Source: Begonia masoniana (lineage: Eukaryota > Streptophyta > Magnoliopsida > Cucurbitales > Begoniaceae). From it: a stretch of 64,000 bases of DNA. The DNA lies in NCBI GenBank assembly GCA_022432975.1, contig CM039510.1, positions 8,272,408 through 8,336,407 on the forward strand, written 5' to 3'. This document shows, piece by piece, positions 4,811-64,000 of this stretch. The position numbers and the translations under genes were made by a program. The notes under the pieces are model-generated. The model ran no database searches, was not told the DNA's origin, and saw only the letters and a program-made list of their open reading frames with translations. Numbering within the stretch: position 1 is the stretch's first letter; each line of letters begins with the position of its first letter.

Positions 4811-4989
4811 GAAAGCTTGTGAAGGAGAAGAGGAAGAAAGGGTTCTGCTTCTGTTATTTAAAACAAAACCGGTTGACTTAAAGAAAGTCAAATCAAACCG
4901 GTCTAGTCGAACTGAATCGGTTCAGCCAAATCAAACTGAACCGGTCCAGCTGAACCAAATTCGATCCAAGTGAACCGGACCAACCCAAA
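4811..4989. repeat. left copy of the ~178-bp repeat flanking the 24-bp array
   Basis: It runs from GAAAGCTTGTGAAGGAG to CCGGACCAACCCAAA and is rich in AACCGG motifs. The copy at 5988-6164 is the same sequence apart from two bases missing from a run of A and G. It is a direct repeat, not an inverted one. Confidence 0.9.
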
Positions 4990-5990
4990 GCTTGAACGAA
5001 AATGAGATGGTGAGCTTGAACGAAAATGAGATGGTGAGCTTGAACGAAAATGAGATGGTGAGCTTGAACGAAAATGAGATGGTGAGCTTGAACGAAAATG
5101 AGATGGTGAGCTTGAACGAAAATGAGATGGTGAGCTTGAACGAAAATGAGATGGTGAGCTTGAACGAAAATGAGATGGTGAGCTTGAACGAAAATGAGAT
5201 GGTGAGCTTGAACGAAAATGAGATGGTGAGCTTGAACGAAAATGAGATGGTGAGCTTGAACGAAAATGAGATGGTGAGCTTGAACGAAAATGAGATGGTG
5301 AGCTTGAACGAAAATGAGATGGTGAGCTTGAACGAAAATGAGATGGTGAGCTTGAACGAAAATGAGATGGTGAGCTTGAACGAAAATGAGATGGTGAGCT
5401 TGAACGAAAATGAGATGGTGAGCTTGAACGAAAATGAGATGGTGAGCTTGAACGAAAATGAGATGGTGAGCTTGAACGAAAATGAGATGGTGAGCTTGAA
5501 CGAAAATGAGATGGTGAGCTTGAACGAAAATGAGATGGTGAGCTTGAACGAAAATGAGATGGTGAGCTTGAACGAAAATGAGATGGTGAGCTTGAACGAA
5601 AATGAGATGGTGAGCTTGAACGAAAATGAGATGGTGAGCTTGAACGAAAATGAGATGGTGAGCTTGAACGAAAATGAGATGGTGAGCTTGAACGAAAATG
5701 AGATGGTGAGCTTGAACGAAAATGAGATGGTGAGCTTGAACGAAAATGAGATGGTGAGCTTGAACGAAAATGAGATGGTGAGCTTGAACGAAAATGAGAT
5801 GGTGAGCTTGAACGAAAATGAGATGGTGAGCTTGAACGAAAATGAGATGGTGAGCTTGAACGAAAATGAGATGGTGAGCTTGAACGAAAATGAGATGGTG
5901 AGCTTGAACGAAAATGAGATGGTGAGCTTGAACGAAAATGAGATGGTGAGCTTGAACGAAAATGAGATGGTGAGCTTGAACGAAAATGAA
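4988..5990. repeat. 24-bp tandem array, about 42 perfect units
   Basis: The unit begins AGCTTGAACG and ends GAGATGGTG, 24 bp long, and repeats without a visible mismatch for about 1 kb. Because 24 is a multiple of three and the unit has no stop in the relevant frames, both strands stay open throughout. The frames encode NENEMVSL on plus and HFRSSSPS on minus. These frames follow from the repeat and I do not call them genes. The perfect uniformity means either a very recent expansion or a looped assembly. Confidence 0.95.
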
Positions 5991-6164: not shown

Positions 6165-6655
6165 TTTTGACCAGAATTATACAAGTCGATCTAAGATTTA
6201 TCAGTAAGAAATTTCTACCTAAATCGTTATGAAATGAATTTATCAAAGTAGGAATTAATATCAAATATTGATTTAAGCAGAACAAACTATTTGATTTAAG
6301 CAGAACAAATCCCGGAAGTTGTCCAAATCGATCTGGTTCGACCTAAGAGCACACGTAAGAAAATTCTGCCCAAATTATTTTGAAAAATTAAATTTATTTA
6401 AGTGTGAATTAAATACCAAATATTTTTAAGTATGACATTATTGGAATATTATTGGAATATTGGAAAATTCCAATAAACTTTAACCGATCGGAATCCAAGT
6501 GAAAATACCACGTTTTAGCTATTGCCCTACATCACAAAATCTATGTTATTTTCTGATAATTATTTTGTTACGATTTTCCAATATTTGAGCATGCATTTTT
6601 AGGAATTGACATAGAATAGTATAATGCTAAAATTAGTAGAACATTTTATATGTGT
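6165..6655. other. AT-rich DNA, no gene seen
   Basis: The only structure I see is a 22-bp direct duplication around 6268-6310 (TATTTGATTTAAGCAGAACA twice). Confidence 0.4.
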
Positions 6656-6795
6656 ATGAAATGAGATGGTGAGCTTGAACGAAAATGAGATGGTTACGCC
6701 TCAACGACAATGAAATGATCATACCTGAACGAAAGTAAGATGACAAAGCCTGAACGACAATGAAATGACTGAGTCTGAATGAAGGTTGGAAAATA
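6656..6795. repeat. decayed relative of the 24-bp array
   Basis: One and a half near-perfect units (GAGATGGTGAGCTTGAACGA) lead into about four diverged units of 23-25 bp built on CTGAACGACAATGAAATGA. It lies about 0.7 kb downstream of the perfect array, has the same orientation and lacks the 178-bp flanks. Confidence 0.75.
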
Positions 6796-7105
6796 AGTTC
6801 CAACTAGTACGTAACTATTAAAAAATGCATATCATCAAACATTGAGGAATTTTCCTTTTGTTTTAATTATTTTTGGATGTCTTTTTTATACAATTAACTC
6901 GGTGCATGAATAGTAAAAAACTCACAAATAATGAAGTTAATAGTACTTATTTTTGTAAATTTATTTGTTACATCATACTGAGCACATGAATTCTATCTAA
7001 TCAACTTACATTTAAATATAGTAACTAATAAAATAAACTAATCAGAAAAATAATATACAAACATCTGCGATTAAAATGTACTAAAACTTATTCTTCATTT
7101 AAAAA

Positions 7106-22634: not shown

Positions 22635-22751
22635 TTTTTTTTTTTTTGCAGAAAGTACTGAATCTAGTGTTTGTTGTTGAAGAATTCTTGTTTAGACAGT
22701 AATATTGTGACCTAAAATTTCGTCCTTCCCCATTACATCATTAGTAGATTG

Positions 22752-23158
22752 TGATGCAGCGGGAATATTAGAAAGAAATATAGCTTCAAGATAGGAGAAG
22801 AAAAGGAGAACAAGAGGGAAAGATTATAGCAGGAGAAATATAGCTAGGAAAAGAGAGGAGAAAGGGGAGAAGCTCTAGACAGGGAGATTGGAAGAGAAGG
22901 AAGACAGAGAAAACACATTCATTTTATCATTCATTCATCAACTAACCTTCAAAGTTACAATGCAACACTTAAATAGAATAAAACCTACTTGGAAAATGAC
23001 AAAGACACTAATGACCCATTAAACAAATAACAGAAAACCATAAAAATACTAAAAACTATAATAATAAATTAGCATAATAATGCTAACCTAGAAAAATGAA
23101 AAGCTTAATACTTTTAATGTAAAACATAAATAAAAATATAATTTTGATGTCCTCATCA
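22752..23158 (-). repeat. 3' LTR of the chimeric chromovirus
   Basis: 407 bp, TG...CA. It differs from the 5' LTR chiefly by lacking a ~26-bp internal tandem duplication, plus a few substitutions. Confidence 0.9.
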
Positions 23159-23178
23159 ATTCTCCCGGGGAACGAGAA
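23159..23178 (-). promoter_or_regulatory. polypurine tract of the chimeric chromovirus
   Basis: On minus the sequence immediately before the 3' LTR reads CCCCGGGAGAAT. This purine-rich stretch is in the position where plus-strand synthesis is primed. Confidence 0.6.
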
Positions 23179-23214
23179 ATTCCCAGTCAAGTTGAAAGAC
23201 CCATAGCACAACAA

Positions 23215-24507
23215 CTAACCAACCTCCCAACCATAAGTTAAGCGGTTGTACAACCTTCTGTCGACATCCATAAACTTGTGTGACCGGGGGCCTGGATCGA
23301 AAATCTTTAGAATTGTCCCATAATTTAGTAAAGAAATATCATGATGCTCCAATAGGTTTGGATCCAAATGTTGAAGTGTCTCTTTGCAAATCCACATACA
23401 ATCACTGTTTGGCCGACCCATCCAACATACAAAGAAGTGTTGGATCTCACCTTCGTTGATAAGTACAATCTGCTCATCTAAAATATCCTCAATTTTATCC
23501 TCATGTGCTGGATCAATAGATGGAGGAAGAAATGGATCAACATATGGTTTAAAATACCACTTATAAGCTACCAAGTCGTCGACATTAAAATCACGATCAA
23601 AATTCTTGGACTGATCAATGTGTTTCCCATCCTCTTGTTTTGCTTCTTTAAAAGCTTTAGTCTTCCAAGCGACCATTTTAAGCATTATAAGCTTTTTTCG
23701 TGCAATTCTTCCTCTCCATTTACGTTGGATATATAACACAGTTGTTTGAAGACTTTTAAAATAAGAATATACCATATAGCGGCGGAAATGAGCCTGGATA
23801 ACTGTTGCAGCCTTCGAGCTTTTTCTGGATCGGAAATTTTTGCGAGCCATCATTGCTCTTAATCCAGTTTGCAAAATGATTGCAGATGACCTTAGACTTA
23901 GGTAAGATTTTCTTGCTCGATATTGTCTAAAATTCTTTGAAATTCTTAAAGCTGCTGCTTCCTTCCGCAATTGTTCATCAGTAAACTCCTTCAATGTCTT
24001 GGTAAGCCTTTCAAGACCTTGTTGAATTTTTTCAAGTTTAACTTTTCCTTCATCGAAGAACTTTTCAACAAATTCATTACGTGCGTGGGCTAGAAAGGGT
24101 GGTGGCTCCAATGTGTTTGGTGACCCTAAAAATTGCCGAGAGCCATACTTCTGTTCGTAATGTCTTGGAGCAAACTCCTTTTTCATTTGGTACTTCATTA
24201 ACTCCCATGTAAGAATTTCGCCCTTGTCATTTACTTTTCTCTTTCTCGTAAATTTTTTCCACCAGAAATTAGCATACCCTTTGAAACTCCAAGAGGCTAG
24301 CAGGATTTTTCTTCTCTCTGAATAGTCATGACATTCAAACAATATCTCCATCTTTTCTATTCAATCAAAAATTTCATAACCATTGAAATGACCACTAAAA
24401 ATAGACAGTGAAATATTATATGGGCTTACATGATCATAGTAGTCCATTGAAGTTCTTTGCAACCTAGCCTCTTGATTCTGAATATATTGAGCACCACTCC
24501 TTGTCAT
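23215..24507 (-). pseudogene. Gag - myosin XI IQ region - chromodomain chimera
   Basis: The frame starts at ATG 24507 and runs 430 codons to 23215, with one in-frame TGA at 24363-24361. Downstream of that stop it is open for 378 codons from 24351. In that 378-residue part, residues 1-70 are Ty3/gypsy Gag (LFECHDYSE, FKGYANFWWKKF, LMKYQMKKEFAPRHY). Residues about 129-238 match the neck of plant myosin XI, with IQ-type repeats ILQTGLRAMMAR, VIQAHFRRYM and YIQRKWRGRIAR. Residues about 285-345 match the chromodomain at the end of chromoviral integrase (IEDILDEQIVL, WMGRPNSDCMWI). The myosin part has no introns, implying capture from spliced RNA. Myosin IQ motifs bind calmodulin-like light chains; whether this protein is made is unknown. 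Confidence 0.85.
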
Positions 24508-25472
24508 TATATCGGTCGTGAAGATTGGAACAGAAAACTCTCCTGTATCGTTGTGTTAATCACGACCACAAGAGGCTGCTGACATAGAGTTCAATTATAG
24601 TGTGACCCGAGCAGACTGGTGTCCCCAGAAAGTGGGCAGAATGGCCCACAGAACACTTCACAATATATATGGCCCAGTAGATTGGCCCAAGAACACTTCA
24701 CAATTTAATAGTCAAACCCACGTTCACCCTAACCGTTCATACCTCAAAGACAGAACAGCGGCATATCCAGCGAATTCCCAGCCAAAACAATACCCGAGGT
24801 CAGAAATTCGAGGGAGCAACACAGAGAACTCCGGCGAAGACCAAAGCAATAAACTAACAAAGGGGTGCAGAAACTCCCTGTTTTGTTTGGCCGAGAACGA
24901 ACAACGCAGCAAAATAATGAAACAGAGAGCTGCGAACTATTGGAAAACCAGAGACCCGACGAGAGGCTTTGAAGCTGACGACGAAGGAACAGCGAAGACC
25001 TCGCGAAGACCCAGAACGACCAGTCGCCGACGCAGAGATCGCAATCCACGGAAATCGACGATATTCAGAAACGGGTCGTCGGCGAACGAGCAACAGAGGG
25101 AGCTGGACCAAGAACTCCGGCGAGCAGTGTAGTCGCAGTTCTCCGAATCCAGAAACCCGAGAACAGAGCAATGAAGATCGAATCGTCAATGATTACCAGA
25201 GAAAAGAGAAGGGCTGTTCGGGTTCGAGAGAGGGAGTGCGACAGAGCTGAACGATGAACAAGAACGAACCAGAAACCAGATTTGTTTTCTTCTGAGTAAT
25301 CATCAAAACAAAATCGCAAACCACTTCTGTTTAGAACCAGAACTGTGTTTTTTTTTTTTTTTTTGTTTGAAAAGGAGACGAACCAACCACAGACAGTGGC
25401 ACTGTAGCAGCGAAAACAGGAGAGAAAAGAAAATTTTGCCCAGAATCAATTGTTTGAGAAAACAATTGCTTT
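24508..25472 (-). other. leader of the chimeric chromovirus
   Basis: This stretch separates the primer site from the chimeric ATG. Frames on the plus strand (24602-25132 and 24969-25250) are antisense, with biased GA-rich composition and no homology I recognise. A poly-T tract lies at about 25348-25364. Confidence 0.6.
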
Positions 25473-25484
25473 GCTCTGATACCA
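25473..25484 (-). promoter_or_regulatory. primer binding site, tRNA-iMet type
   Basis: On minus this reads TGGTATCAGAGC, the standard complement of the 3' end of plant initiator tRNA-Met. It lies three bases inside the 5' LTR. Confidence 0.92.
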
Positions 25485-25487
25485 ATT

Positions 25488-25922
25488 TGATGCAGCGGGA
25501 ATATTAGAAAGAAATATAGCTTCAAGATAGGAGAAGAAAAGGAGAACAGGAGGGAAAGATTATAGCAGGAGAAATATAGCTAGGAAAAGAGAGGAGAAAT
25601 ATAGCTAGGAAAAGAGAGGAGAAAGGGGAGAAGCTCTAGACAGGGAGATTGGAAGAGAAGGAAGATTTTAGAGAAAACACATTCATTTTATCATTCATTC
25701 ATCAACTAACCTTCAAAGTTACAATGCAACACTTAAATAGAATAAAACCTACTTGGAAAATGACAAAGACACTAATAACCCATTAAACAAATAACAGAAA
25801 ACCATAAAAATACTAAAAACTATAATAATAAATTAGCATAATAATGCTAACCTAGAAAAATGAAAAGCTTAATACTTTTAATATAAAACATAAATAAAAA
25901 TCTAATTTTGATGTCCTCATCA
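25488..25922 (-). repeat. 5' LTR of the chimeric chromovirus
   Basis: 435 bp, TG...CA. The motif AGAAATATAGCTAGGAAAAG is present twice in tandem (about 25568-25619) where the other LTR has it once, which explains most of the length difference. Confidence 0.9.
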
Positions 25923-26458
25923 GATTGTTTGACAGAGCTAAGGTCTAAAATATGGAACAATCACGTGTTTTCCAAATTCTCCGCCGGGAGAGGGGTAATG
26001 TTAAGATCTAGTTGCAGATTTTGCTCCGATTCTAGCTCCGGAGCTTGAGTTCTAGTTCCAAAATCCATAATCAACCAAACTTGGTGCAGGTAGCACCTCA
26101 TTGAAATAACTTAAAACAAGCTGTGCAAGCCTTTACAATGCGCAAACATTGTTAGAATAAGCAGTGATATAACTTAAACAACTAAATAGATGTTATTGAG
26201 TGGCAAAACTTAGACAATCGACGATAAATAGCAAATAAAAACTGTGAACTAAGAAAAAGATAGAAAAACAAATCTCAAAAAATTTGATCAAGCAATAAAT
26301 AAATATAAGAGGAGTAGTACTACATAGACAAATCTTTAAGGTCTGATCAACATGGATGGCCTATAAATAGGTAAAAGAATTATCAAAATTGAGCATCACC
26401 GATCTATGCATCTTAATTCTCGATGATTTGCATTTTCTTAATTAGCCTCTGAATTCCT

Positions 26459-29400
26459 TCAACACAAAACAAAAACAACCTTGTCTGGACTCATCATTCT
26501 CTTCGTCGCTTGAGTTCCAACAATCCTCTCCAGCTACATAATGCAACCGTAAAATTATTATTCTTTGTGTGAACAGAAAAAGTAATGATACAGTGAACAA
26601 GCGATTGACAATATATATGATTGTTTAATTTTTGTTTTGTTTAACAAACATATTAGTGTCAAAGATTCAAACAGAATTACAAAATAAGTCTCAAATCACC
26701 TACATCATTCTTGACTATCAATGATTATTGACGTGGAAGAAATTATTTCCAAAAATCAAAACACCCTCTGTTTCTAGAAAACAGTTTACAGATTTATGAT
26801 TCAATTCCCAAACAAACATAATTGAGAATATAAATTAAAATTCAAAAATAGGGAATAAGAAAACTTACCCGAAGCTGATCAAATTTGGAAAAGAGGATGG
26901 TGCAGGTAGTGTCTTCAGAACCATCGAGCATATTTACAATCTGCAGTATAGGGAAAACACGTAATTGAGCAGGGTTAAAAGAAACAAACCTTTTCAAAAA
27001 AGAAACATTGCAATGAATTAAAAAAATTACAAATAAAGGATAGAAAAGCAGTATAAAAAAGAACGTGTCAGCTGGTTATTGTTTCCTTCCAATTAAAAAG
27101 GCTAAATTTCGCTAAACTTAGAACAATCAACCCACTTCTGAATCAGAAACCTAACTTTGTCTCATTCAGCTATAGAATTATTTTCTAATTCTTGAAAAAG
27201 CTTAGAATTTTGTTTTACCTAAATTGTAAAAGAAAAAAACAGCAATGATGTCACGCTGCAAAATTTGTGCAGCTTGCCAACCCAATGAAACAGAATGCAA
27301 GAATGCAAAAATTAAGACGAAGTTAGTAAATCCATATCCAAATCTTCCAAACATCACTTTAAAAAGTAAATGAAAATTTGCATTGCACACCTCAGGATAA
27401 AATTCCGATCTCTCTGGAAGGGAATAGAAAATCAAGTTCTGCATCCCACGAATCTAGCCAACAAGAGTAACATAATGAGTCAAACATTCAAGCCCTATTC
27501 TGTTAAACACACACATTGTAACATTCAAGTTCTATTAAAATGTAGAGTTATAGAAAAATTAATCAATAAATAAATCTCGTCATCAAGTAAATAATTGAAA
27601 ATGTCTGCTACTAAAGCAAAATGTACATGTAAAAAAAAACTTTATGCATAGAAACACAATAAAATATGGATATAAGTTACATTAATATTCAGCAAACTCG
27701 ACAAAAGGGAATGATTAGTATTATATCACACTACCAACAGCAATCCTTTAAAAAGTTCTCTTTTAAGGGGGAGTGCAGGCATACATTGACCGTTTGAATA
27801 TTATTTCTTTTTATGCCTGCTCCCCGTTTTGCTAGTGCACGCACACAACTCAACCAAAGTGTTATTCTTGACAATGAGAGTAAAAATGAAAATAACTTTC
27901 AAAAGCTTACGGCCAAGTCAATCCAATAAAAAGATTATGAGACACAAGATTATTCAGTAGGAAAATTAAGTCCAAAGTTGTCTATAGAACCTTGTATCTG
28001 TGGTAAAAATGAGCTCTCTCAGTATATAACATAATCTTTCTCTTTCCTTCAAAAAACCAAACTCGTGCACGAGATATATCACTCTGTTTGGTGTACCTGA
28101 ATAAAACAATTGTCAGTTATTACATGTCTAATCAATTATAAAGAATTAACCCATTGCAAAAATAGTCTTCACGTATCTCCCAGTTTTTGGACCAAGTAAT
28201 AAATTGAAGTTGAAAATGCAGATTCTTACTCGCCAATAAGACAAAAGGATGCGTTTTGCGCCTTTAAAAAGTTACGAACTCGAACAAACTCAAAGTAGGA
28301 ACTAATAAACAACATTATACCCCCCTGCATGTAGAGTCAAGAATAAAAATATTTTCAGATAATTTTTCCCCGAAAATATACATCAGCCCAAAACTTAGAT
28401 TTCAAACAGGTTAGATCTTGACCTGAATTGATTCTTTTATCTTTGGAAAAACCTGAAAATAGAAAGACGTGCAGTTAATTAAACTTCGCACTTTCAAGTA
28501 AAAGAAAGAAACAAATGTATTTTTAGTTCTTGATATGAACATTTTAAGTATTTTTTATCATCTTTAAGACATTCTCCAAAAAGGAATATTAAAAGCATGA
28601 TTTAACATATTTTACTTACCACGTACAATCAAGATTTCATGGAAAAAGTTTAAAACTGCAAGGAAACTTTTTATTTCCTAGTAACTAAAAAATTAAGTAT
28701 TTCGAATAAATGCTGAAGATCAATACAAATACATCTCTTGATTTCCTTTCAAAGAAACTTTTAAATCAAGGACAGTCACCAAAAAAATCTAATTTATTAC
28801 AGAAAAGAAACACATTTCTAACGCATTACCTAGATTTGAAAAACTAGACTCCACCTCTAGTTCAAGTACTTGATAGAAAAGTCAAATTTTAACTTGTATG
28901 AATTCTAATTTTTGTATAGTTTATCATTATATATATGAAGTTGTTGCAAGCCATAACATTGAATGGAATAAGCAATCACGAAGAAAGACAGCAAGAATCA
29001 TATTCAAACTTTCACCAAAATAATATATCCTCACTTTAAAATCAGAAAATAACCAGATCATGTTAGACAGAACTCTTACTCTTCCAACCCTATAATATTG
29101 TTCACAATTTTAATACTTGTGTTTGGAACTACACATATTCTTTAGAGAAAAAACCTTTTGGCACAACAAAAAACACCTGAAATGTTCAATCAAACCTTCT
29201 TGGAAAAATATTCAAGTCGAGTATCATTAACATTTGCAATAGAATCTGCATCATACCGCTCATATATCTGAAAGATAAATAGATCAAAAGTTAATTGGCA
29301 AATGTACAATAAGAGTGCCCATAAATCAAATTCCAATTTCAATCTACAAGAAGAAACAAGATAAGCAGGAAGCAATAAAACCTGTCGAACTGGGAGAACC

Positions 29401-32400
29401 ACTTTTGGAATAACTCCTTTGAATTCACACACCATTCGCACCTTTATAAATATAACATCGAACATCAGAAAATCAATACATGTGACTTTACTATGATTCG
29501 AATGGAACCTATTACCAATTTGGTGCAACAAGAAAATCGATACACGTGACTTTACTAAGATTCGAATAGAACCTATCACCAATTTGGTGCAACAAAATAA
29601 TTGTTTCGAAATCAAAATAGAAAAGTAAAATAATTACAAAGAATATTATCGAACAAGAAAATTATATTAAGACAACTTTCTCCAAAGCTACTAGTCAAGT
29701 CTTTAAATAGACTTGCAAATAATAAGTTAGGAAAATTAATACTTAAGTAAATAATGTAACTTAAAGAAATAAGTTATTTATAGAATAATTAATTAAGAAA
29801 TAATTAAAATACTGATAGGTTGTACTTTCTACGGGCCACGCACCACATCATATACAGCCATTCATTCTCCATAAAAAAGTCTTCCCTTTTAGTTCGTTAG
29901 TAGCCCCCTTGTAAAAACAAATAACAACTTAAAATATAATAAAATGATAGGCGCACCTTTCCTCGGTAATTAACACATTGGTGATTGAATAAAGCATTTA
30001 TATCTGAGAATAAATAATGAACAAAATTTAGAAAAACATGATAAAACCAAGAAGCAAAGTATTTTCAAAGTCTCAAGTAAATATTTTGATTAATTAAGTT
30101 GTAGAATTTCCATAAAAAATTAATGCGCATATAGAATATTAAATTTACAAGAAACTTATAAAAATATACCTTTCAAAGTTAAACCATATATACAATCTTG
30201 TGTGCTCATAGAAGAGAAAATTATTGCAGATAAATTTTTTTGAAATAATATTAATTTTATTATTGTTCTGTAGACCTATTATTCATTATTTTTTAAAATT
30301 TATCATTTTAGTCTTTTTTTTTTTTTTTTTTTGTGATTGAGTGTTTTTTATTGAAAAAAATTTTCCTCCTTCTTCTTAGTATCTTCTTTCTATCGATATA
30401 ATTTGTTTCAAATAAAAAGTAAAGAAAATATTATGGACAAAAATGTGTGCATTTGGGAACCAATAAACTAATCTATGAAATACCATATTACCTGGGTTCG
30501 TATAATGACCCAAAATAATTGACTGTCTATAGAACTTTGCATTCCCATCAAGATACCTAAAAAATGAAACATAAATTTACCAAGCATAACAAGGTAGATC
30601 AAAGAATTCCTAGAAACAAAAAATTGAATAAAAACGTGCACATTTATTTACATTTTCAATGTAGTGATTAAAGTTAACAATAAAAAAGACACAGCAAAGA
30701 AAGGAAAGAACTTTGCTTTACAAGAAAGCAATTTTATTACCTAATGCAAGACCTTCAACAAGGAAGCAATTAAGGAAAGTGCATAAAAAGACATACCAAG
30801 GTCTTATCCTCATTACGTTGGTTCCATGTTGTTTAGTTGGTATCTTGTTCACTTGTTCCAAAACAGAACTCACTAAGGACCAATTCTATAGCAAAATAGA
30901 TTAGAGAAGTTTGATAGAGGATATATAGTATGTAACACTATAGTAATTATTCTAATTAGAGCTCACTGTACCTGCATAGCTATTATATCTGCATGATCGA
31001 TAATTAGAACCTGCTTGTTCAATAGAATAATTAGTACTACAACAAAAGACAACTAGAAAATAATAGTCGTGATAAAAACTACCTCAATGGAAGAAAGATA
31101 GTCCACATCTTTTTCCTTGTTCTCCTCGGCCTCTCCTATTTTCTAGAAATTAAAAGTTCAACCAGATTAGTGATTATCAGAATAGATTAAATTGTTGGAA
31201 TTCATAACTCTCATTGTGAGAGTTCTTCTCATAATACAGAAGATAAATGAGTCACAAAGGTAAGTTAAAAGTCACCAATTACCTAAATTAATCCTAGCTA
31301 TATAAGGAATAAATAATTATAGAATGATACAAAATATCTACTATTATGATTATATGTTGAAGCACTATCTAACTGAAATTCCACCTGAAATTGATGTTGG
31401 CTGATCAAGACACAACAATTTTCCTACAAAAAACTGATGATGTAGTCTTGTCCTGGCCTTTGTTAATATATCAGTTATATTTAGATTAGTTAAAATTTGT
31501 GGGAGATAAATAATGCGAGCATCTAGGCGGGTCGAATTGTGTGACAATCAGCTTCAATAGGTATTGTGCATTCATTATGAACAAGATTAATAGTGATTTG
31601 TATGATACTAATGTTGTCAGCAAGAAAAGGAGTGGACTTAGTCGAAGGACAGCCAAGCTTGGACAAATTTTGCAAGAAGACGGATAATCTTTGAACAGCA
31701 GATGTTGTACAGTATTCAGACCCAGTTGATGATTTAGAAGCTCAATCTTGCTTCTCAATATCCCTAGAGATTAAAGAATGACCAGGAAACATGCACCCCA
31801 AAAGAAAGACCTTCAGGTATCAAGACATCTTGCCCAATCAACGTCACTATGACCAACAAGACAAAGAGGAGAACAAGCAAGAAATCCTTGGTTAGGCATC
31901 CCACAACTTATCAAATAATTTGATGAACAATAGTCAAATGTAGTTGGGTTGGGGGAGGGGAGCATAAAATTAACTGAATTGAACAACAAAAGAAATATTG
32001 GGTCGTGCAACTATCAAGTAATTCAAGCTGTCAACCAATCATCAAAAGATTGTAGGATCTTAAAGGAGATTATCCTCCTTACTATCGTAGTTTGCATTAA
32101 CTACTAATGGAGTATCCATATCAAAAGAATCTTGAAGTCTTGGCAAACAGATCAAATCTTGTTTGCAATTGTGTTGATTTAAGAAAAAGACGGTGCTTAT
32201 AAACTTCCAACACCAAGAAATTGGTAAGATGACCAAAATCTTTCATATGAAATCAGGCTCAAGATGTTGCAGCAAACTAGTAACTAAGTTGTCCTAATGA
32301 CAACAATATTATCAGCATAAACCAGAGAGAACAATCTCAATAGACTTCTTGCAAACAAACAAAGATGAGTCATATTGACTCTATTTAAATGAAGAATTAA

Positions 32401-35400
32401 GAACGCTTGAGCAAAATTCATGAACCTATGACGGAGGAGCTTGTTTCAACCAAAATAAAAACTGCTTCAAAATCTCTTATATGAAATCAGGCGTCGCTGC
32501 AAACTAGTTATTAAGATAGATTTTGTTTTAGTGATAACAATATCATCTATATAAACTAAAAGGAGAACAATCTCTATAGACATCTTGCAAACGGATAAAC
32601 ATGAATCATATTGACTGTGTTTAAAGGAGAAATAAAGAACAATTAAGCGAAACTTATCAAACCATGCATTAGAAGCTTGTTTCAACCCATATAAAAATTG
32701 CTTCAACTTATATGATCCTAGCAATATACAGTCATTATACATTGAAGCACTATCTGATCGGGATCACATATGTTTGGTACATCTCCCAATGTAGAGACAA
32801 CCAAAAGAAGAAAACCCAGTAACAATTTATTTTAGGAAAGCATATTGCATTCAACTTTTGACGAGAACAATCACATTCGTTGTCACAACAGCTGGGAACA
32901 AGATTAGATTTCATTTCTAGGAAGATACAAAGTTCCAGTTTTACAATAGATCACGATGGAATCAAATTTAAAACTTACATCTTATGGGTCCCAATTACTT
33001 GGATGGTAATTCACACAAATTGAATAAGATGGGATAATTTGATTTTTCTGGTTCAATTTTGAATTGTAAACAATTTTTGCTAAATATTTTCTTACATTGT
33101 GTTTAATCTCTAAATAAGACAAATTCTTAAATATGTAATAATGAAGATTTTTTTTCTTCTAATTACATTCAGTCAGCGGAGAATTCAATCCCCTACTTGC
33201 TCATCTTAACAACCTTTCCTCAATTTCCGTGTCTCAAATTGTCCAACAATTACTAGGGTTGAACATGTACTTGTAGATATCTCTGCCTCTAATAGGGATG
33301 GTGCCATCTTTTGCTAAGCCAAAATCCAATAGCTTTGGATTATAGTCCAAATCTTAAAAAATATTGGATGTTTTGAAGTCACAACATATTACAAGTTTCT
33401 CTACTTCATGGAGAAATGCCAATCCTTTTGCAGCGCCATATGCAATTTTCATTCCGATGGACAATGGCTAGGGAATCAACACTCTTGAAAACAATTTGTT
33501 TTCCACAGTTCCTCATTCCACGTACTCATATGTTAGAGCTCTATTTCATATTCACAGCAACATCTGATTAATTTCACCAAATTGGGATGAGAAAGCAGCC
33601 CCAAAAAGATGACTTCTGCATGACATTCTCTATGGCCTCGATAACTGTTCTCCGCATCATGAACCTCAACAGCTACAAGACGTGAAGGGATCCCTACTCT
33701 CAAATCCTTAGAAATAAAACCTTGGTTAAAATTTTTGAATCTTCCTCCTCCCAACACTCTATCAGGTCTGAAATTGGATGTCATTCTCTTCAGTTTGTTG
33801 AAGGTGAATGCAAGCAATGGATTTGCAGCAAAATCTCAACGTAGGTCTTTTATATCTTCTAGATTTGAGGTTAATTTCTTTCCTTCCTTTCTCCTGAAGG
33901 TCTTTCAAATTTTGAATATTCTAGTATGATATTGCCGATAGAAGTGGTGACTTTGCTTCATTGAAATGTTTTGCCATCTTCAAACTGTAAGGCAAGGACC
34001 CCTAAAGGATCAAGCTGAGTCGATCGTCCCCATAACCTACCTTTAAGATTGGAAGCTGTCCCAAAGTTCCAACCTATTTCCTCACAATGACGATCAACCA
34101 TGATCCGATGTTGACTCACTTTTTGAAAGAAAAATTTCAGCCCTTTGTCAAGATAGTTGGCTTCATAGGTCTTCCCAGGGAGTGGATTAAAAGGCTTGCA
34201 AAGTCTGTTTTCGGACATTACCGAGTAAAGATCACATACAAGCCCTCTTATCAGAGCTGCCCATCTTTGAAAGCCAATTAGATAACCCGGTTTCAAACCC
34301 AACATATAATTCATGTTCCCCCATGTAGTTTTGGGCTCACCAATTCACTATCACTCCATGTGCAAGGAATCCTCTTCCATCCCATGTTTAGCCAAAACTG
34401 ACTAAAACTAAGTCTAAATGAAAAAAATTTACAACCTCAACCGAACCAAAAGTAAACCTAGCAAAACCCAAAAAAAAAAAACGGTACGAGATTCATTCTA
34501 TTTACGGTGCCTAGTTCAAAATTTATTTTATTAAAAAATAAAATTCAAGATTCAAGTTGAACGAATTCTAAAGTTTGAGATTTTGTACAAAAACAAATTG
34601 TTGAATGAAACCTCAAAGTTCAGAATTTAATTTGAATTTTATCCAAAAAAAAATACCAACAAATTTTCTCTGATTTTCTTATTTCATAGCAATCACAATC
34701 TCATCTTTACAGACCAAAAAGATACAATGATTGATAACAATATGCATATGTAAAGAACAAAATTGACAGGAAAGTAGCATCCTTTATAAAACCAGAAACT
34801 TGAACTAAAATTTCAAAGAAAATCTAGAAAATAAGAGAGAAGGATAAATCTTTACCGTAATCAAACCAAGAGGAGATGCAACAATCATATCTGATGAATA
34901 GAAGTCACTGAATAGCTTTATGCTTTTCCTAAGAAATAAAAAACCAAAAAACAAATTTATGTAAGAAAATCCATAACTAAATTTTTTTATAAAGTCTTGA
35001 AACGAGACACAAGCAAACTAAAAATAATTCATCATAAATTTAAATGACTAAAATCTGGAAGTAAGTAATTATTCTATCATATAATTACATAATAAGGAAT
35101 TATAACACTTTTATATCAGTGAACTTAGAAAATTTTGCAGACTTCATCAAAATCAAATAATCTTTTGTGGGAAAACTCAAATATGAAGTACCAAAAGCGA
35201 TCAACTTCCTAACTAAATCATTGATCTGGTTATCCACTCTATGTTTTGCCTAAACAACATGAATTAACTAGAATGATCTCAATTTACACAAACGCTTTTT
35301 GAAAGGAAAAGGAAAGCTTGCTCAGTTTATTGGTCTTTCGTCCCCTTAATACCACATTCCAGAGTTGGGATCAAGAGGAGATTCCATAATCATGTCTTAT

Positions 35401-38400
35401 TTATGGAATTGTATGACACTAAAAATCTGTGTACCTTGATGTTTCCCACCAGAGCAAATGGGATTTGGGAAGCTGTCAAAGGAACTTATTCTAAGGTGAA
35501 TGTTATGCAACTTCTAGAGAGCCAAATCAATTATTTGGTAAAACTTATGCAAGGAGAAAATTTATAAATAAGGATAATCTTGATATGATGTGAGGTATTG
35601 TCAGTTTTGTGTTATTTTACCGAGAAGTTTTTTTGTGGAAGTTAGATGGTAGGAGGGGATATCATAAATGGGAAACAGATGTACAAAGGATGTTATATGA
35701 TGTTGTTAAAAAGGTGTGTTTGTAGATGATAGTTTCTACTAATAAATGTATTCTAAATTTAGAAGTGTAGAATTTCAGATTTATGATTAGATTGTAATAT
35801 CCAATTTTGTTTGTGTGAGCATTGTTTATTCAATATCGATTACTATCAAAATCTCACAATGAACTTCCATTTACGTGCAGTTCTTTTAAAACAATTCGTT
35901 GATTGAGAAATCACAGTTGAGTTTTTTTTTGCTTGATTAAACCATGATTTTGATCAAGTCATGACCCAAATTGTACGCCGACTTACCATGTAGTAATTAA
36001 GTTTTAGCCAACAAGGAGTGATGGGTGCTTTCCAAACCATTGAGAGTTCCGACAAGCTATCTAGACAAGCTATCTAACTATGTTCTAGATGGAGGATCTA
36101 AACAGTATACCAGTCATCAATATAATCACTCCAAAAGGGAATTTGACCAATCAATCTGACCACTTTAGGCACATATGGTACATCTGATGTCCATAAATGT
36201 TATATACTAAGAATTAAGGGATTGACTATCATTATTTGAATTTATTCTAAGATTAGGTATCTTAAGAAGAAATCCCTAACAAGATTAGAATGTCTACTTT
36301 ATTATTTTAAGTTAGAAAGAAATCACCTTTAGTTTTTTACCCAATTAGCAACAAGTCAAAATGGTTACTAAAATTTTTTTCCAGTCCTCCTTGGCAATAG
36401 CATTGACCATCATGGAAAATGACGAGAATGTTTTATCATAAAGAGAATCAGCATCATGTTGCGAAAAATCGTATACGCAAGTGCACGTGTCGCAAAAGTA
36501 ATAAAGTGTGTATTAAGTACGAGTGTCGATCCCACGAGGAATAATTATGTTAAATATTGAGTATCTAAATTTTAGTTTAATTTGAAAAGAAATAATAATT
36601 TTTGTGATTTAGATTTTAAAACTAAAATAATAATTCAAATAAAATTAAGCAGCAATTTAAATAAAAGATTTAAAAATAAAGAAGTAAGATTATATGATGA
36701 GAAAATCTAGGGTTTCGATTTCACTTAACTAATCCTATTTATCAGACCTAATTCAAATAGTTAAATCTTATTTCTATGTGTTGATGGCAATTTCACGAAA
36801 ATATTTATCAATCTCTCTCGAGCAAAGACAAACTTATTCAACTAACGAATTATTACCTCTCGGTCTCTAATCCTGAGAATTAATTGAATACATTAAGAAT
36901 GAGAAATTATACTACCACATGAACGCATTAGCTATCTCTAGCCTAACATCCTTTTCATGGCAAACTATTCAGTGCACGGTTAAATTCTCCGCTCTCGCAT
37001 CCCGAATCAACCCTAAAGTTCTTAGTTTTGGTGATCAATCAAACCTAAGCATTACGTTCAGAATAGATTACTCAACACAGAACAGAAACAGAAAATTAAC
37101 TAATTGAATTAAGAAAAATAAACAATCATAGAAAAGTTACGTCGAAACCCTAGAACAAACGTTTAGTTCATGCTAGAAAAATAAACAACAGTAATAATAA
37201 AGAGTTGCATAATTAAATAGTGAAATTAAAAAGAAAGGAAAAGAAAACTATGAAGAATGATCGCCCCTCCTCGTCGAAGAGTTCGCTCGGTGGTGCTCTC
37301 CGTCGCGGCCTCTAGATTTGCTCCGGATCCCTCTTTTAGGTCTGCTGCCTTAGGTTTTATAATTTTCTTTAAGCTGATCAATGGTTGAGATTAGATCTGT
37401 CTTCAATTGAACGGTTCAGATTAAAACACATCGTCTTTCCATATCTAGAGTGATAGGCGATCGATCTCTGATAAGTTACAGAAATCGATCGCGGCATCTC
37501 TTTGCTAAAGCTTGTGTAGTGATATGTGTAGCGATCGATCTCTGCATTTCATAGAGATCGATCGCTGCTGCCTTCAAATATGTGTGGCGATCGGTTTCTT
37601 TAATGTGCAGCGATCGGTTTGCTTTCTCTTCATGTACGGCGATCGATTTCTGTATTGTATAGAGATCGATCGCTGGCTGCTTTTCCATATGAATGGCGAT
37701 CGATTTCTGTTATTTGTAGCAATCGATCGCATGGATGGATGGAGTTCGATTTCCTCCTTTTTTTTCTTATCTTCAACTGTCTTTCTTCTTCAGCTTCTTT
37801 CTTTTTCCTGTTTTAATTAATTTGTCTGCACACTCACCAAATATATCAGAAGTTTCATAAACTTGAGTAAAACTCATTAATTCAAGTATTAAAAAGTACA
37901 ATAAAGTGTGTAAAATACACACTTATCACACCCCCAAACTTGAATGAAAGCTTGTCCTCAAGCGAACAACAATAAGCATAGAAATCTAACAAAGTTTATC
38001 CAGAATTTTCTAAAATTTTAAGTCTGCAAAATATTTAAAATTTCCATGGTAAAATTATCTAAATCACAGTTCGCAGTATTTTGTCTCAGCTTGATATTTG
38101 CATGCAAATAAACTATCTAAATAAATACTTTCAATACTACAATTCATGACATATCATTGAAAGAAACTAAATCAGAAATTCTTGTGTATGTATATCTGCT
38201 CAAACTCAATATCTTTTAACTGATAAATCTATAATTGTGTCTTTATGAGAAGGGAAATAAAAATAACTCTCAGGATCACTCACTCCACTCTTATTGTTCA
38301 TCAGTCTTGCCCATTATTCACTAATAACAAATATGAGTAAACAGAATAAAAGTCGATAGGTCTTTAATTAAGCTTGTAATGTAAGGCCAGGTTATAAGGT

Positions 38401-47700: not shown

Positions 47701-50700
47701 CTGGGAAGGGAGGTCCTGGTTGGTTAGCTTGAGGTATCTGAATGGCGTTGTTCGGGTTCTTCCATGAGAAGTTTGGATGGTTGTTGCGCCCCCCATTATA
47801 GTAGTTACCTGAATTTTGATTCGTCGGTCTATTATAATTTCCCACATATTGGGCCTGTTCAGATGAACTACTAGCCATTAGGTTCCCTTGCTGACAGTGT
47901 TCACTTTCATGTGGTCCTTGGCACCATTGACATTGCATGATCGGGGAATGGATTGCATTAACTGGAGTTTGGTTTCCTTGAATATGTTGAGTGAGAGATG
48001 CGATTTGCGTAGTTAATGCTTTAATTGCTTCCATTTCTGGGGTATTTGACTGCCTTCTCAAAATCTGACGTTCAACTGGGCACTGATCATTATTGAGGGA
48101 TAACTCTTCTAACAGGTTAAATGCCTCCACTTCTGTCTTAGATAATAGTGATCCACCAGCTGCTGAGTTGACAAGCGTCCGTGTAGAACTTGATAGGCCG
48201 ATGAAGAATGTCTGTATTTGCATCCATTGTGGTAGACCATGCTGGGGGCATTTTCGTAAAAGTTCCTTGAATCGGCCCCATGCTTCGTAGACCGTCTCGC
48301 CATCGAATTGATTAAAGTTGTTAATTTCGTTGCGAAGTTTTGCCATTTTTTCAAAGGGAAAGAATTTAGATAGGAATCTTTGAACTAATTCATTCCACGT
48401 TGTAATTGAATCCGGGGGTAAGGAATTTAACCAGTTTTTAGCGCGATCTCTTAGTGTAAAGGGGAACAACCTAAGCCTAACAGCATCATCAGAAACATTA
48501 TGATATTTAAACGTGTCACAGACCTCAACGAAGCTTGCAATATGATCTTTTGGATCCTCGTTAGGCAGACCACAGAATTGATACTGCTGGATCATTTGTA
48601 TGGTTCCCGGCTTTATTTCAAAATTGTTGCACGTGATAGCAGGTTTCCGAATTGCTGATTGAATCCCGTCCATGGATGGCATAACATAATCGAGCAAAGT
48701 TCGCCGTTCGACCTCTGCCACTTCAACCCTCCGTTGTAGATTTGCGTTTTGATCATCTGCCATAATTGCTAGTTTTGTTTCCCTTCGATTTCGGCGACAG
48801 GTTCGTTCAATTTCAAGGTCGATAGGGATTAGGTTGGCAGTACCTAATTTTCGCATACACCTGTAATGTGCAAATAATATAATTTAAGCTTACAATAATA
48901 AAAGAAATAAATAATAAATAAATAATAAAATTTCAAATATAAACTAAAATCAAATAATTCAAAAATAACAAAATTTAATCCCCGGCAACGGCGCCAAAAA
49001 CTTGTTGCGAAAAATCGTATACGCAAGTGCACGTGTCGCAAAAGTAATAAAGTGTGTATTAAGTACGAGTGTCGATCCCACGAGGAATAATTATGTTAAA
49101 TATTGAGTATCTAAATTTTAGTTTAATTTGAAAAGAAATAATAATTTTTGTGATTTAGATTTTAAAACTAAAATAATAATTCAAATAAAATTAAGCAGCA
49201 ATTTAAATAAAAGATTTAAAAATAAAGAAGTAAGATTATATGATGAGAAAATCTAGGGTTTCGATTTCACTTAACTAATCCTATTTATCAGACCTAATTC
49301 AAATAGTTAAATCTTATTTCTATGTGTTGATGGCAATTTCACGAAAATATTTATCAATCTCTCTCGAGCAAAGACAAACTTATTCAACTAACGAATTATT
49401 ACCTCTCGGTCTCTAATCCTGAGAATTAATTGAATACATTAAGAATGAGAAATTATACTACCACATGAACGCATTAGCTATCTCTAGCCTAACATCCTTT
49501 TCATGGCAAACTATTCAGTGCACGGTTAAATTCTCCGCTCTCGCATCCCGAATCAACCCTAAAGTTCTTAGTTTTGGTGATCAATCAAACCTAAGCATTA
49601 CGTTCAGAATAGATTACTCAACACAGAACAGAAACAGAAAATTAACTAATTGAATTAAGAAAAATAAACAATCATAGAAAAGTTACGTCGAAACCCTAGA
49701 ACAAACGTTTAGTTCATGCTAGAAAAATAAACACAGTAATAATAAAGAGTTGCATAATTAAATAGTGAAATTAAAAAGAAAGGAAAAGAAAACTATGAAG
49801 AATGATCGCCCCTCCTCGTCGAAGAGTTCGCTCGGTGGTGCTCTCCGTCGCGGCCTCTAGATTTGCTCCGGATCCCTCTTTTAGGTCTGCTGCCTTAGGT
49901 TTTATAATTTTCTTTAAGCTGATCAATGGTTGAGATTAGATCTGTCTTCAATTGAACGGTTCAGATTAAAACACATCGTCTTTCCATATCTAGAGTGATA
50001 GGCGATCGATCTCTGATAAGTTACAGAAATCGATCGCGGCATCTCTTTGCTAAAGCTTGTGTAGTGATATGTGTAGCGATCGATCTCTGCATTTCATAGA
50101 GATCGATCGCTGCTGCCTTCAAATATGTGTGGCGATCGGTTTCTTTAATGTGCAGCGATCGGTTTGCTTTCTCTTCATGTACGGCGATCGATTTCTGTAT
50201 TGTATAGAGATCGATCGCTGGCTGCTTTTCCATATGAATGGCGATCGATTTCTGTTATTTGTAGCAATCGATCGCATGGATGGATGGAGTTCGATTTCCT
50301 CCTTTTTTTTCTTATCTTCAACTGTCTTTCTTCTTCAGCTTCTTTCTTTTTCCTGTTTTAATTAATTTGTCTGCACACTCACCAAATATATCAGAAGTTT
50401 CATAAACTTGAGTAAAACTCATTAATTCAAGTATTAAAAAGTACAATAAAGTGTGTAAAATACACACTTATCACATCACATAGTAGAAAGATTACCTTGT
50501 GAACTTGATGCCAACCATAAAATGATCTTCATTATTCCCACCAAAAAGTTTCTCAAAATCAGAAGGTTTTGAAGACTTCTTAGACTTACATTCTTCTTCC
50601 TTATTCTCATCATCAGCTGTAGAAAAATCTTCAAGTAAACGGTCCAGATGCTCTACATTAACCTAGAATAATAAAGGAAAAATTAAAAACACCATTGTGC

Positions 50701-51400: not shown

Positions 51401-51500
51401 NNNNNNNNNNNNNNNNNNNNNNNNNNNNNNNNNNNNNNNNNNNNNNNNNNNNNNNNNNNNNNNNNNNNNNNNNNNNNNNNNNNNNNNNNNNNNNNNNNNN
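51401..51500. other. assembly gap of 100 N
   Basis: Exactly 100 N, the usual placeholder for a gap of unknown size. It interrupts a UTP25 exon. Confidence 0.99.
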
Positions 51501-53892
<2,392 letters not shown>

Positions 53893-54477
53893 GATTGTTT
53901 GACAGAGCTAAGGTCTAAAATATGGAACAATCACGTGTTTTCCAAATTCTCCGCCGGGAGAGGGTAATGTGAAGATCTAGTGCAGATTTTGCTCCGATTC
54001 TAGCTCCGGAGCGAGTTCTAGTTCCAAAATCCATAATCAACCAAACTGGTGAGGTAGCACCTCATTGAAATAACTTAAACAAGCTGTGCAAGCCTTTACA
54101 ATGCGCAAACATTGTTAGAATAAGCAGTGATATAACTTAAACAACTAAATAGATGTATTGAGTGGCAAAACTTAGACATCGACGATAAATAGCAAATAAA
54201 AAAATGTGAATAAGAAAAAAGATAGAAAAACAATCTCAAAAAATTTGATCAAGCAATAAATAAATATAAGAGGAGTAGTACTACATAGACAAATCTTTAG
54301 GTTGATCCACATGGATGCCTATAAATAGGTAAAAGAATTATCAAAATTGAGCATCACCGATCTATGCATCTTAATTCTCGATGATTTGCATTTTCTTAAG
54401 TAGCCTATGAAATTCCTTCAACACAAAACAAAACAAAAACCGTGTGGGACTCATCATTCTCTTCGTCGCTTGAGTTC

Positions 54478-56164
<1,687 letters not shown>

Positions 56165-57373
56165 AGCAATGATGTCACGCTGCAAAATTTGTGCAGCTTG
56201 CCAACCCAATGAAACAGAATGCAAGAATGCAAAAATTAAGACGAAGTTAGTAAATCCATATCCAATCTTCCAAACATCACTTTAAAAAGTAAATGAAAAT
56301 TTGCATTGCACACCTCAGGATAAAATTCCGATCTCTCTGGAAGGGAATAGAAAATCAAGTTCTGCATCCACGAATCTAGCCAACAAGAGTAACATAATGA
56401 GTCAAACATTCAAGCCCTATTCTGTTAAACACACACATTGTAACATTCAAGTTCTATTAAATGTAGAGTTATAGAAAAATTAATCAATAAATAAATCTCG
56501 TCATCAAGTAAATAATTGAAAATGTCTGCTACTAAAGCAAAATGTACATGTAAAAAAAAACTTTATGCATAGAAACACAATAAAATATGGATATAAGTAC
56601 ATTAATATTCAGCAAACTCGACAAAAGGGAATGATTAGTATTATATCACACTACCAACAGCAATCCTTTAAAAAGTTCTCTTTTAAGGGGGAGTGCAGGC
56701 ATACATTGACCGTTTGAATATTATTTCTTTTTATGCTGCCTCCCCGTTTTGCTAGTGCACGCACACAACTCAACCAAAGTGTTATTCTTGACAATGAGAG
56801 TAAAAATGAAAATAACTTTCAAAAGCTTACGGCCAAGTCAATCCAATAAAAAGATTATGAGACACAAGATTATTCAGTAGGAAAATTAAGTCCAAAGTTG
56901 TCTATAGAACCTTGTATCTGTGGTAAAAATGAGCTCTCTCAGTATATAACATAATCTTCCTCTTTCCTTCAAAAAACCAAACTCGTGCACGAGATATATC
57001 ACTCTGTTTGGTGTACTGAATAAAACAATTGTCAGTTATTACATGTCTAATCAATTATAAAGAATTAACCCATTGCAAAAATAGTCTTCACGTATCTCCC
57101 AGTTTTTGGACCAAGTAATAAATTGAAGTTGAAAATGCAGATTCTTACTCGCCAATAAGACAAAAGGATGCGTTTTGCGCCTTTAAAAAGTTACGAACTC
57201 GAACAAACTCAAAGTAGGAACTAATAAACAACATTATACCCCCCTGCATGTAGAGTCAAGAATAAAAATATTTTCAGATAATTTTTCCCCGAAATATACA
57301 TCAGCCCAAAACTTAGATTTCAAACAGGTTAGATCTTGACCTGAATTGATTCTTTTATCTTTGGAAAAACCTG

Positions 57374-58844
57374 AAAATCGATACACGTGACTTTACTAAG
57401 ATTCGAATAGAACCTATCACCAATTTGGTGCAACAAGAAAATCGATACACGTGACTTTACTAAGATTCGAATAGAACCTATCACCAATTTGGTGCAACAA
57501 GAAAATCGATACACGTGACTTTACTAAGATTCGAATAGAACCTATCACCAATTTGGTGCAACAAGAAAATCGATACACGTGACTTTACTAAGATTCGAAT
57601 AGAACCTATCACCAATTTGGTGCAACAAGAAAATCGATACACGTGACTTTACTAAGATTCGAATAGAACCTATCACCAATTTGGTGCAACAAGAAAATCG
57701 ATACACGTGACTTTACTAAGATTCGAATAGAACCTATCACCAATTTGGTGCAACAAGAAAATCGATACACGTGACTTTACTAAGATTCGAATAGAACCTA
57801 TCACCAATTTGGTGCAACAAGAAAATCGATACACGTGACTTTACTAAGATTCGAATAGAACCTATCACCAATTTGGTGCAACAAGAAAATCGATACACGT
57901 GACTTTACTAAGATTCGAATAGAACCTATCACCAATTTGGTGCAACAAGAAAATCGATACACGTGACTTTACTAAGATTCGAATAGAACCTATCACCAAT
58001 TTGGTGCAACAAGAAAATCGATACACGTGACTTTACTAAGATTCGAATAGAACCTATCACCAATTTGGTGCAACAAGAAAATCGATACACGTGACTTTAC
58101 TAAGATTCGAATAGAACCTATCACCAATTTGGTGCAACAAGAAAATCGATACACGTGACTTTACTAAGATTCGAATAGAACCTATCACCAATTTGGTGCA
58201 ACAAGAAAATCGATACACGTGACTTTACTAAGATTCGAATAGAACCTATCACCAATTTGGTGCAACAAGAAAATCGATACACGTGACTTTACTAAGATTC
58301 GAATAGAACCTATCACCAATTTGGTGCAACAAGAAAATCGATACACGTGACTTTACTAAGATTCGAATAGAACCTATCACCAATTTGGTGCAACAAGAAA
58401 ATCGATACACGTGACTTTACTAAGATTCGAATAGAACCTATCACCAATTTGGTGCAACAAGAAAATCGATACACGTGACTTTACTAAGATTCGAATAGAA
58501 CCTATCACCAATTTGGTGCAACAAGAAAATCGATACACGTGACTTTACTAAGATTCGAATAGAACCTATCACCAATTTGGTGCAACAAGAAAATCGATAC
58601 ACGTGACTTTACTAAGATTCGAATAGAACCTATCACCAATTTGGTGCAACAAGAAAATCGATACACGTGACTTTACTAAGATTCGAATAGAACCTATCAC
58701 CAATTTGGTGCAACAAGAAAATCGATACACGTGACTTTACTAAGATTCGAATAGAACCTATCACCAATTTGGTGCAACAAGAAAATCGATACACGTGACT
58801 TTACTAAGATTCGAATAGAACCTATCACCAATTTGGTGCAACAA
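57374..58844. repeat. 23 perfect copies of a 64-bp unit
   Basis: Every unit is identical (AAAATCGATACACGTG...TTGGTGCAACAAG), and the last lacks its final base. The first copy of the region has only two units (29469-29595). The array is entered from an intron sequence that shares just GAAAAT with the unit. Confidence 0.95.
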
Positions 58845-60599: not shown

Positions 60600-63371
<2,772 letters not shown>

Positions 63372-64000
63372 CTTCTAATTACATTCAGTCAGCGGAGAAT
63401 TCAATCCCCTACTTGCTCATCTTAACAACCTTTCCTCAATTTCCGTGTCTCAAATTGTCCAACAATTACTAGGGTTGAACATGTACTTGTAGATATCTCT
63501 GCCTCTAATAGGGATGGTGCCATCTTTGCTAAGCCAAAATCCAATAGCTTTGGATTATAGTCCAAATCTTAAAAAATATTGGATGTTTTGAAGTCACAAC
63601 ATATTACAAGTTTCTCTACTTCATGGAGAAATGCCAATCCTTTTGCAGCGCCATATGCAATTTTCATTCCGATGGACAATGGCTAGGGAATCAACACTCT
63701 TGAAAACAATTTGTTTTCCACAGTTCCTCATTCCACGTACTCATATGTTAGAGCTCTATTTCATATTCATAGCAACATCTGATTAATTTCACCAAATTGG
63801 GATGAGAAAGCAGCCCCAAAAAGATGACTTCTGCATGACATTCTCTATGGCCTCGATAACTGTTCTCCGCATCATGAACCTCAACAGCTACAAGACGTGA
63901 AGGGATCCCTACTCTCAAATCCTTAGAAATAAAACCTTGGTTAAAATTTTTGAATCTTCCTCCTCCCAACACTCTATCAGGTCTGAAATTGGATGTCATT
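63372..64000 (-). pseudogene. second copy of the kinase fragment (runs off the window)
   Basis: This matches 33156-33783 with very few differences, including the same lost catalytic residues. Confidence 0.85.

Follow-up and report, generated by a model that had tools for sequence, protein, structure and literature searches.

Structure of the element in the window

The window, a stretch of 64,000 bp from Begonia masoniana (C9:8272408-8336407 of the 795-Mb host genome, which is assembled in 308 contigs), contains a minus-strand element that is recognizable as an LTR retrotransposon by its paired LTRs, primer binding site, polypurine tract and short target site duplication (TSD) (Table 1). Its two LTRs differ by 5 substitutions in 407 aligned bases; a further 28 gapped positions mainly represent one short duplicated block in the 5' LTR. 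The primer binding site is presumably complementary to the 3' end of the initiator tRNA-Met, and a tract resembling the polypurine tract also precedes the LTR of a candidate autonomous partner (L055; see below). A single coding frame runs from the Gag start codon to the stop downstream of the chromodomain; its sole break is a TGA at 24363-24361, and its open part comprises 381 codons. An earlier note on this DNA had described a myosin neck fused in frame to Gag on one side and to a chromodomain on the other, with an in-frame TGA after the Gag ATG, and the frame bears out both points.

Table 1. Coordinates of the element, its parts, and its second image in the window
Feature	Position	Strand	Remarks
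LTR element, whole	22752-25922	minus	intact ends
TSD adjoining 5' LTR	25923-25927		GATTG on the plus strand, CAATC on the element strand; shifted-flank control
5' LTR	25488-25922	minus	starts TGATGAGG, terminates TGCATCA
Primer binding site TGGTATCAGAGC	25473-25484	minus	three bases past the 5' LTR end
5' untranslated leader	24508-25472	minus	read from sequence
Partial Gag (covers the first half of Retrotrans_gag)	23986-24507	minus	frame and Pfam; ATG at 24507; in-frame TGA 24361-24363
Captured myosin XI-K neck, IQ3-IQ6 and start of coiled coil	23635-23976	minus	host introns absent
Chromovirus integrase end, chromodomain and family-specific C terminus	23218-23592	minus	Chromo match ~23347-23493; stop 23215-23217
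Polypurine tract CGGGAGAAT adjoining 3' LTR	23159-23167	minus	named from position and make-up
3' LTR	22752-23158	minus	starts TGATGAGG, terminates TGCATCA, like the 5' LTR
TSD adjoining 3' LTR	22747-22751		GATTG on the plus strand
Error-rich second image of the same insertion	51859-54483	minus	same upstream flank, beside N gap

In the open part, the Pfam IQ profile matches four stretches above its curated cut-off (6.5e-13). The Chromo match of the window copy (5.7e-5) lies under the curated cut-off, and that of the sibling copy L039 (5.2e-6) lies above it; similarly, Retrotrans_gag stays under its cut-off in the window copy (0.0017), where it spans positions 2-46 of the 97 in the profile, and passes in the sibling L054. 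The earlier description of a complete element holds for the ends alone and not for the coding part, in which Gag covers only about half of its profile. The view that the enzymes have been lost is upheld: protease, reverse transcriptase and integrase core have no Pfam match in the open part, an RNase H match is likewise absent from the element, and seven further frames between the LTRs (62-175 residues) gave zero Pfam matches at 0.1. Since matches to protease, reverse transcriptase and integrase core are missing, the element is classified as a non-autonomous chromovirus derivative rather than an autonomous member. The defining trait of Ty3/gypsy chromoviruses, a chromodomain at the integrase end, is present, and the relatives of this end include P0118, a database protein comprising a chromovirus integrase end. 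Visual inspection found two of the three cage residues (1 and 3) missing from the chromodomain, as in plant group II chromodomains (PMC3350952). A single-sequence structure model of the ORF was discarded as unreliable (mean pLDDT 35.4).

The captured myosin XI-K neck and its donor gene

Residues 126-247 of the window ORF align without gaps with the IQ region of a Camellia myosin (57% identity). A protein search restricted to the neck returned 108 proteins, all of which have a myosin head or DIL domain in their record, and wherever the organism is named it is a plant. The top ranks are held by Myosin-17 (XI-K) types with 60-61% identity at full or near-full coverage, values that are exceeded by two partial-coverage matches; animal myosin Va is a far weaker match (7.1e-8 in a PDB search). 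The closest relatives of the neck are class XI myosins, the class to which the earlier note had assigned it and in which we place Myosin-17, -5, -6, -9, -11 and -12. The head itself has no Pfam match in the window ORF or in L039, which do show IQ motifs.

With Vitis Myosin-17 as query, myosin exons were located in the host genome on C7, C15, C2 and C9; in the neck, the C7 gene is 72-82% and the C15 gene 55-61% identical to the query. The C7 gene, the myosin XI-K gene of the host itself, is the donor; it lies on a different contig from that of the window element. The captured stretch of this gene starts at position 5832 of L051 and consists of four exon parts (up to 6005, 6497-6702, 6864-6983 and from 7089 onward); the introns between them measure 491, 161 and 105 bp and have GT/AG ends. 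In the copies L039, L040, L048 and L042 the four exons are directly joined, with nucleotide identities to the C7 gene of 83-94%, depending on the exon; the clean absence of all three introns at the splice sites, which agrees with the intron-free neck described earlier, indicates that a spliced mRNA was captured. Over approximately 114 codons, 31 copies share 72-84% protein identity with the C7 gene; the window copy stands at 72%, as compared to 63-64% with the best other plant myosins. Because the introns are lost and the copies are nearer to the C7 gene than to other plant myosins, the origin of the neck from a spliced XI-K mRNA of this plant lineage is well supported. The copies share the IQ-repeat sequence of Myosin XI-K but have neither its motor nor its tail. 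A few bases are common to the Gag and myosin sides at the 5' joint, as would be expected if template switching had joined them. The synonymous distances (dS) between the copies and the C7 donor, 0.20-0.39, are several-fold larger than the LTR distances, so that the capture would be older than the insertions, provided that the rates are comparable.

A mobile family with independent insertions

A search of the host genome with the fusion ORF found at least 165 matches, and one with the Gag part at least 150, of which 130 have at least 60% identity; these counts are lower bounds, as the best candidates were scored, and one copy may yield more than one match. Thirty-seven fusion-ORF matches span at least 300 of 378 residues; 13 contain stops, and 24 are stop-free within the match, including the window copy, which counts as stop-free because its TGA sits upstream of the matched part. 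Stop-free siblings of the window copy exist, though the window copy itself has the premature stop. Among 50 loci (L001-L050), 34 of which extend far enough in the 5' direction for the test, an exact 5-bp TSD closes 19, the window copy among them, with 17 different sequences; when the flanks were shifted by 6-59 bases as a control, a mean of 0.22 loci and a maximum of two were closed. The LTR distances (K) of the closed loci range from 0 to 0.0354, with four loci free of substitutions; if 1.3e-8 or 7e-9 substitutions per site and year are assumed, the window insertion (K = 0.0124) would be approximately 0.5-0.9 million years old. The element thus belongs to a mobile non-autonomous family, in which several cargo-bearing copies each have their own TSD, and many independent insertions exist besides that of the window copy.

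The idea of a lone odd copy, produced by the chance read-through of two nested insertions or by an assembly artefact, could appeal to the damaged second image of the element beside an N gap in the window; given the genome matches, the many copies of the same structure at different sites with TSDs of their own, and the outcome of the shifted-flank control, it was rejected as next to impossible.

Exchange of the captured cassette

The captured segment varies among the copies, and the earlier single-element view is too narrow; the family carries several different captured genes. IQ1-6 together with the end of the converter is found in L039, L040, L042 and L048; IQ1-4 in L033, L034, L041 and L049; IQ3-4 in L031, L050 and the second frame of L044; and IQ3-6, as far as read, in L001-L030, which were picked as best scorers against the window ORF and are biased toward open frames and this very form. 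In the short IQ types, GCTCGT or ACTCGT is fused to GATTTTAATG. L044 (C6:1577000-1586000) holds two forms, IQ3-6 and IQ3-4, as neighbors at a distance of about 2 kb.

In L035, L036, L037 and L054, the family Gag is followed by UBP14-like pieces instead of myosin. The piece in L035 matches UBA_7 (5.5e-12), the solved structure of USP5 (2.6e-22) and Arabidopsis UBP14 (2.6e-18); that in L054 matches UBA_7 at 4.6e-18. A UBP14-type search of the host genome found nine places of the family among the 75 scored, and the host UBP14 gene was absent among these 75. Beyond its UBP14 piece, L054 has an armadillo-like region with weak matches. In L038 and L045, Gag leads into IQ3-6 and then into two further pieces, the first resembling SEC31 (E 0.0014, a weak match) and the second matching TAF2 (3e-18 and 5.3e-22); in L038, the entire series forms one open frame of 659 codons. 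Since L035 and L038 have no Chromo match, the chromodomain is not strictly required. Different parts of a copy can have different closest relatives: the window copy shares 95% of Gag and 80% of the IQ part with L011, and 80-81% of Gag and 92-93% of the IQ part with L005 and L007, which indicates mosaicism among the copies.

Selection on the parts of the fusion ORF

Median pairwise dN/dS was 0.44 for Gag (607 pairs, 36 copies), 0.54 for the IQ part (361 pairs, 29 copies) and 0.32 for the chromodomain part (409 pairs, 30 copies); the IQ part compared with the host gene gave a median of 0.39, host branch included. With omega 1 requested, codon-model log-likelihoods dropped by 10.1 (Gag), 2.8 (IQ) and 27.3 (chromodomain part); these fits are known by their log-likelihoods alone, and the null is omega 1 as requested, not as confirmed in the output. 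Parsimony counts on inner branches gave 67 nonsynonymous and 36 synonymous changes for Gag (omega 0.57, p = 0.005), 65 and 29 for the IQ part (omega 0.77, p = 0.15), and 90 and 57 for the chromodomain part (omega 0.49, p = 2.7e-5); on the tips, omega was 0.64, 0.95 and 0.54, respectively. As a caveat, the site numbers behind these branch values were obtained with transitions weighted 2, and a different weight would move omega; recombination between copies disturbs the counts, and the compared set is rich in best scorers. The near-equal constraint on tips and inner branches in Gag and the chromodomain part may come from the choice of open copies. Relative to the host gene, 17% of the IQ core positions differ, as against 23% of the remaining positions.

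The earlier proposal to look for purifying selection among the copies met with a divided result. The substitution patterns point clearly to purifying selection on the Gag and chromodomain parts, but the IQ part would be at best weakly constrained. This weak constraint, together with the absence or replacement of the cassette in other copies, suggests a spacer kept in frame and not a calmodulin-binding arm; the IQ segment is probably a tolerated in-frame spacer.

A candidate autonomous partner

P0118 matches many places in the host genome; six of these matches, with 73-75% identity, sit in open frames of 1,610-1,681 codons. The partner sequence was read as two 1-kb pieces of one copy on C15 (L055 and L056). 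Its 3' end and LTR are 80-84% identical to those of L050 and L030; the window element aligns at 72% along 305 bases, up to about 40 bases into the LTR. The gag of the partner is a clear Retrotrans_gag (7.9e-17) and a distant relative of the family Gag (L056: 19% over 62 residues, E 0.1). The C15 chromovirus is accordingly named as a candidate autonomous partner, whose enzymes are predicted from the length of the frame and its integrase end.

Origin of the family and alternative readings

The reading favored here, with a probability of roughly 0.86, is that the window copy represents a recent insertion of a multi-copy, non-autonomous Ty3/gypsy chromovirus family that carries a captured XI-K neck, presumably obtains its enzymes from a partner, changes its cassette, and is under selection in the Gag and chromodomain parts. 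In an ancestor, the RNA of the element would have taken up a spliced XI-K transcript, placed after a truncated Gag and ahead of the integrase end with its chromodomain, possibly by template switching during reverse transcription inside a shared particle. The chimeric element would then have been copied many times to separate sites, leaving 5-bp duplications and LTR pairs 0-3.5% apart; the enzymes would presumably have been supplied in trans by an autonomous chromovirus with a related 3' end in the same genome. The cassette continued to change along the way, with IQ1-2 or IQ5-6 absent in some copies, and with UBP14 pieces, or IQs continued by SEC31-like and TAF2 pieces, in others. A more far-reaching version, in which the family acts as an exon-shuffling platform with a constant Gag start, a swappable cassette slot and a chromodomain or family C-terminal end, where spliced host mRNAs are repeatedly exchanged in frame, open-frame cassettes are selected and new fusions are expressed, is conceivable but considered doubtful.

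Two other readings concern the reason why the frame is open. Young copies of a few masters could retain it passively, with no part of the ORF under selection; the small LTR distances (0-0.035), the stops in 13 of 37 long matches, the fact that the best scorers were looked at first, and the similar tip and inner omega of Gag and the chromodomain part are all compatible with such a process. It is nevertheless unlikely in view of the inner-branch omega values of Gag and the chromodomain part (0.57 and 0.49) and the corresponding drops in model fit with omega 1 requested (10.1 and 27.3 log units); moreover, the capture seemingly predates the insertions, yet many copies are open. Conversely, the entire chimera could be a selected working protein, whose neck would bind calmodulin or myosin light chains and whose chromodomain would bring it to chromatin, to the benefit of the element or the host, a combination that the earlier note had considered striking if expressed. 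Many open copies keep IQ3-6 or IQ1-6, strict IQ matches occur in the window copy (LQTGLRAMMAR, IQRKWRGRIAR) and its siblings, the IQ part has a pairwise dN/dS under 1 both among copies and against the host gene, and its model fit drops by 2.8 log units with omega 1 requested. Against these points, the branch counts of the IQ part yield an omega of about 0.77 for inner branches (p = 0.15) and 0.95 for tips, the IQ core differs from the host gene almost as often as the rest, IQ motifs or the entire cassette are absent in some copies, and the window copy combines an upstream stop with an altered IQ3 (IS for IQ). With selection on the IQ part failing to support it, and two of three cage residues absent from the chromodomain, a functional protein of this kind appears improbable, more so than passive retention of the frame.

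Relation to known gene-capturing elements

The captured segments of the maize element Bs1 are reportedly fused to Gag. In a review, Bs1 is described as an LTR element that acquired parts of three host genes and whose chimeric gene is transcribed and translated; other cases of capture are given beside it (PMC13317346). The Begonia family resembles Bs1 as an LTR element bearing host-gene segments, but differs by the genes involved, its many copies, alternative cargo sets within one family, and the chromodomain end. The earlier note had regarded transduction of plant genes into LTR elements as rarely documented; this cannot be maintained, as surveys count 425 LTR elements with gene fragments, from at least 189 captures, in maize (PMC2774510), and 672 and 1,343 captured genes in rice and sorghum, respectively (PMC3726574). 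Host gene fragments inside LTR elements are common to these surveys and the present family. Under the conditions of the maize survey, no element was found to contain more than one nuclear gene (PMC2774510), whereas a single frame of L038 combines pieces of myosin, a SEC31-like sequence and TAF2; in contrast to the surveyed LTR elements, one capture is here carried through many insertions. With plant group II chromoviruses, the family shares the integrase end and chromodomain, and the 3' end and LTR of L050 and L030 resemble those of the host's candidate chromovirus; it departs from plant chromoviruses by its partial Gag and by the missing matches to protease, reverse transcriptase, RNase H and integrase core.

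No protein combining gag, IQ and chromodomain was found among the 7,997 best word-sharing candidates within the length range of the search; the 27 proteins returned are myosins and chromovirus ends. Titles and abstract openings of the literature on gene capture, on this combination, and on myosin XI or IQ motifs with retrotransposons, in a collection with few subscription journals, contained no account of the family. Gene capture by plant LTR elements is already known; new are the many-copy family, its changing in-frame cargo from several genes, and the identified donor. As an example of a retrotransposon that builds fusion genes, the family is unusually clear-cut. The family provides a datable multi-copy series of one lineage with successive captures, in which donor, exon joints, changes of form and candidate partner lie within one genome; counting and comparing its copies can test how captures arise, which frames are selected and which merely carried along, and at what rate fusion genes are born, questions that are usually argued from single cases.

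Second image of the element and other features of the window

The second image of the element differs from the first by 75 mismatches and 87 gap openings over 2,700 bases and runs on into the same flank as a series of collinear blocks. Overall, 23870-33785 and 51859-64000 are collinear duplicates, with three blocks of 98-99.7% identity and a first block of 92.7% with many gaps; an N gap (51401-51500) and single-base runs of 339, 1,685 and 1,461 bases lie in or around the second duplicate. A second transposition was rejected because of the shared flank, the density of errors, the adjoining N gap and the long single-base runs. The second image is most likely an assembly duplication, and the second duplicate stretch as a whole is probably one with uncorrected read sequence; a true recent segmental duplication is a less likely source of the second image.

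Elsewhere in the window, self-matches reveal tandem arrays at 4989-5989 and 57360-58844 with periods of 72 and 64 bases, the first of which is open in several frames. Direct repeats at 36457-37930 and 49003-50475 are 99.9% identical over 1,474 bases and might be the LTR pair of a further, very young element; between them, frames at 43.5-48.9 kb resemble, by eye, gypsy-type gag-pol. Beside the assembly gap, minus-strand segments at 50560-50720 and 51310-51400 appear coding-like and resemble, again by eye, a host gene of the UTP25/DUF1253 type.
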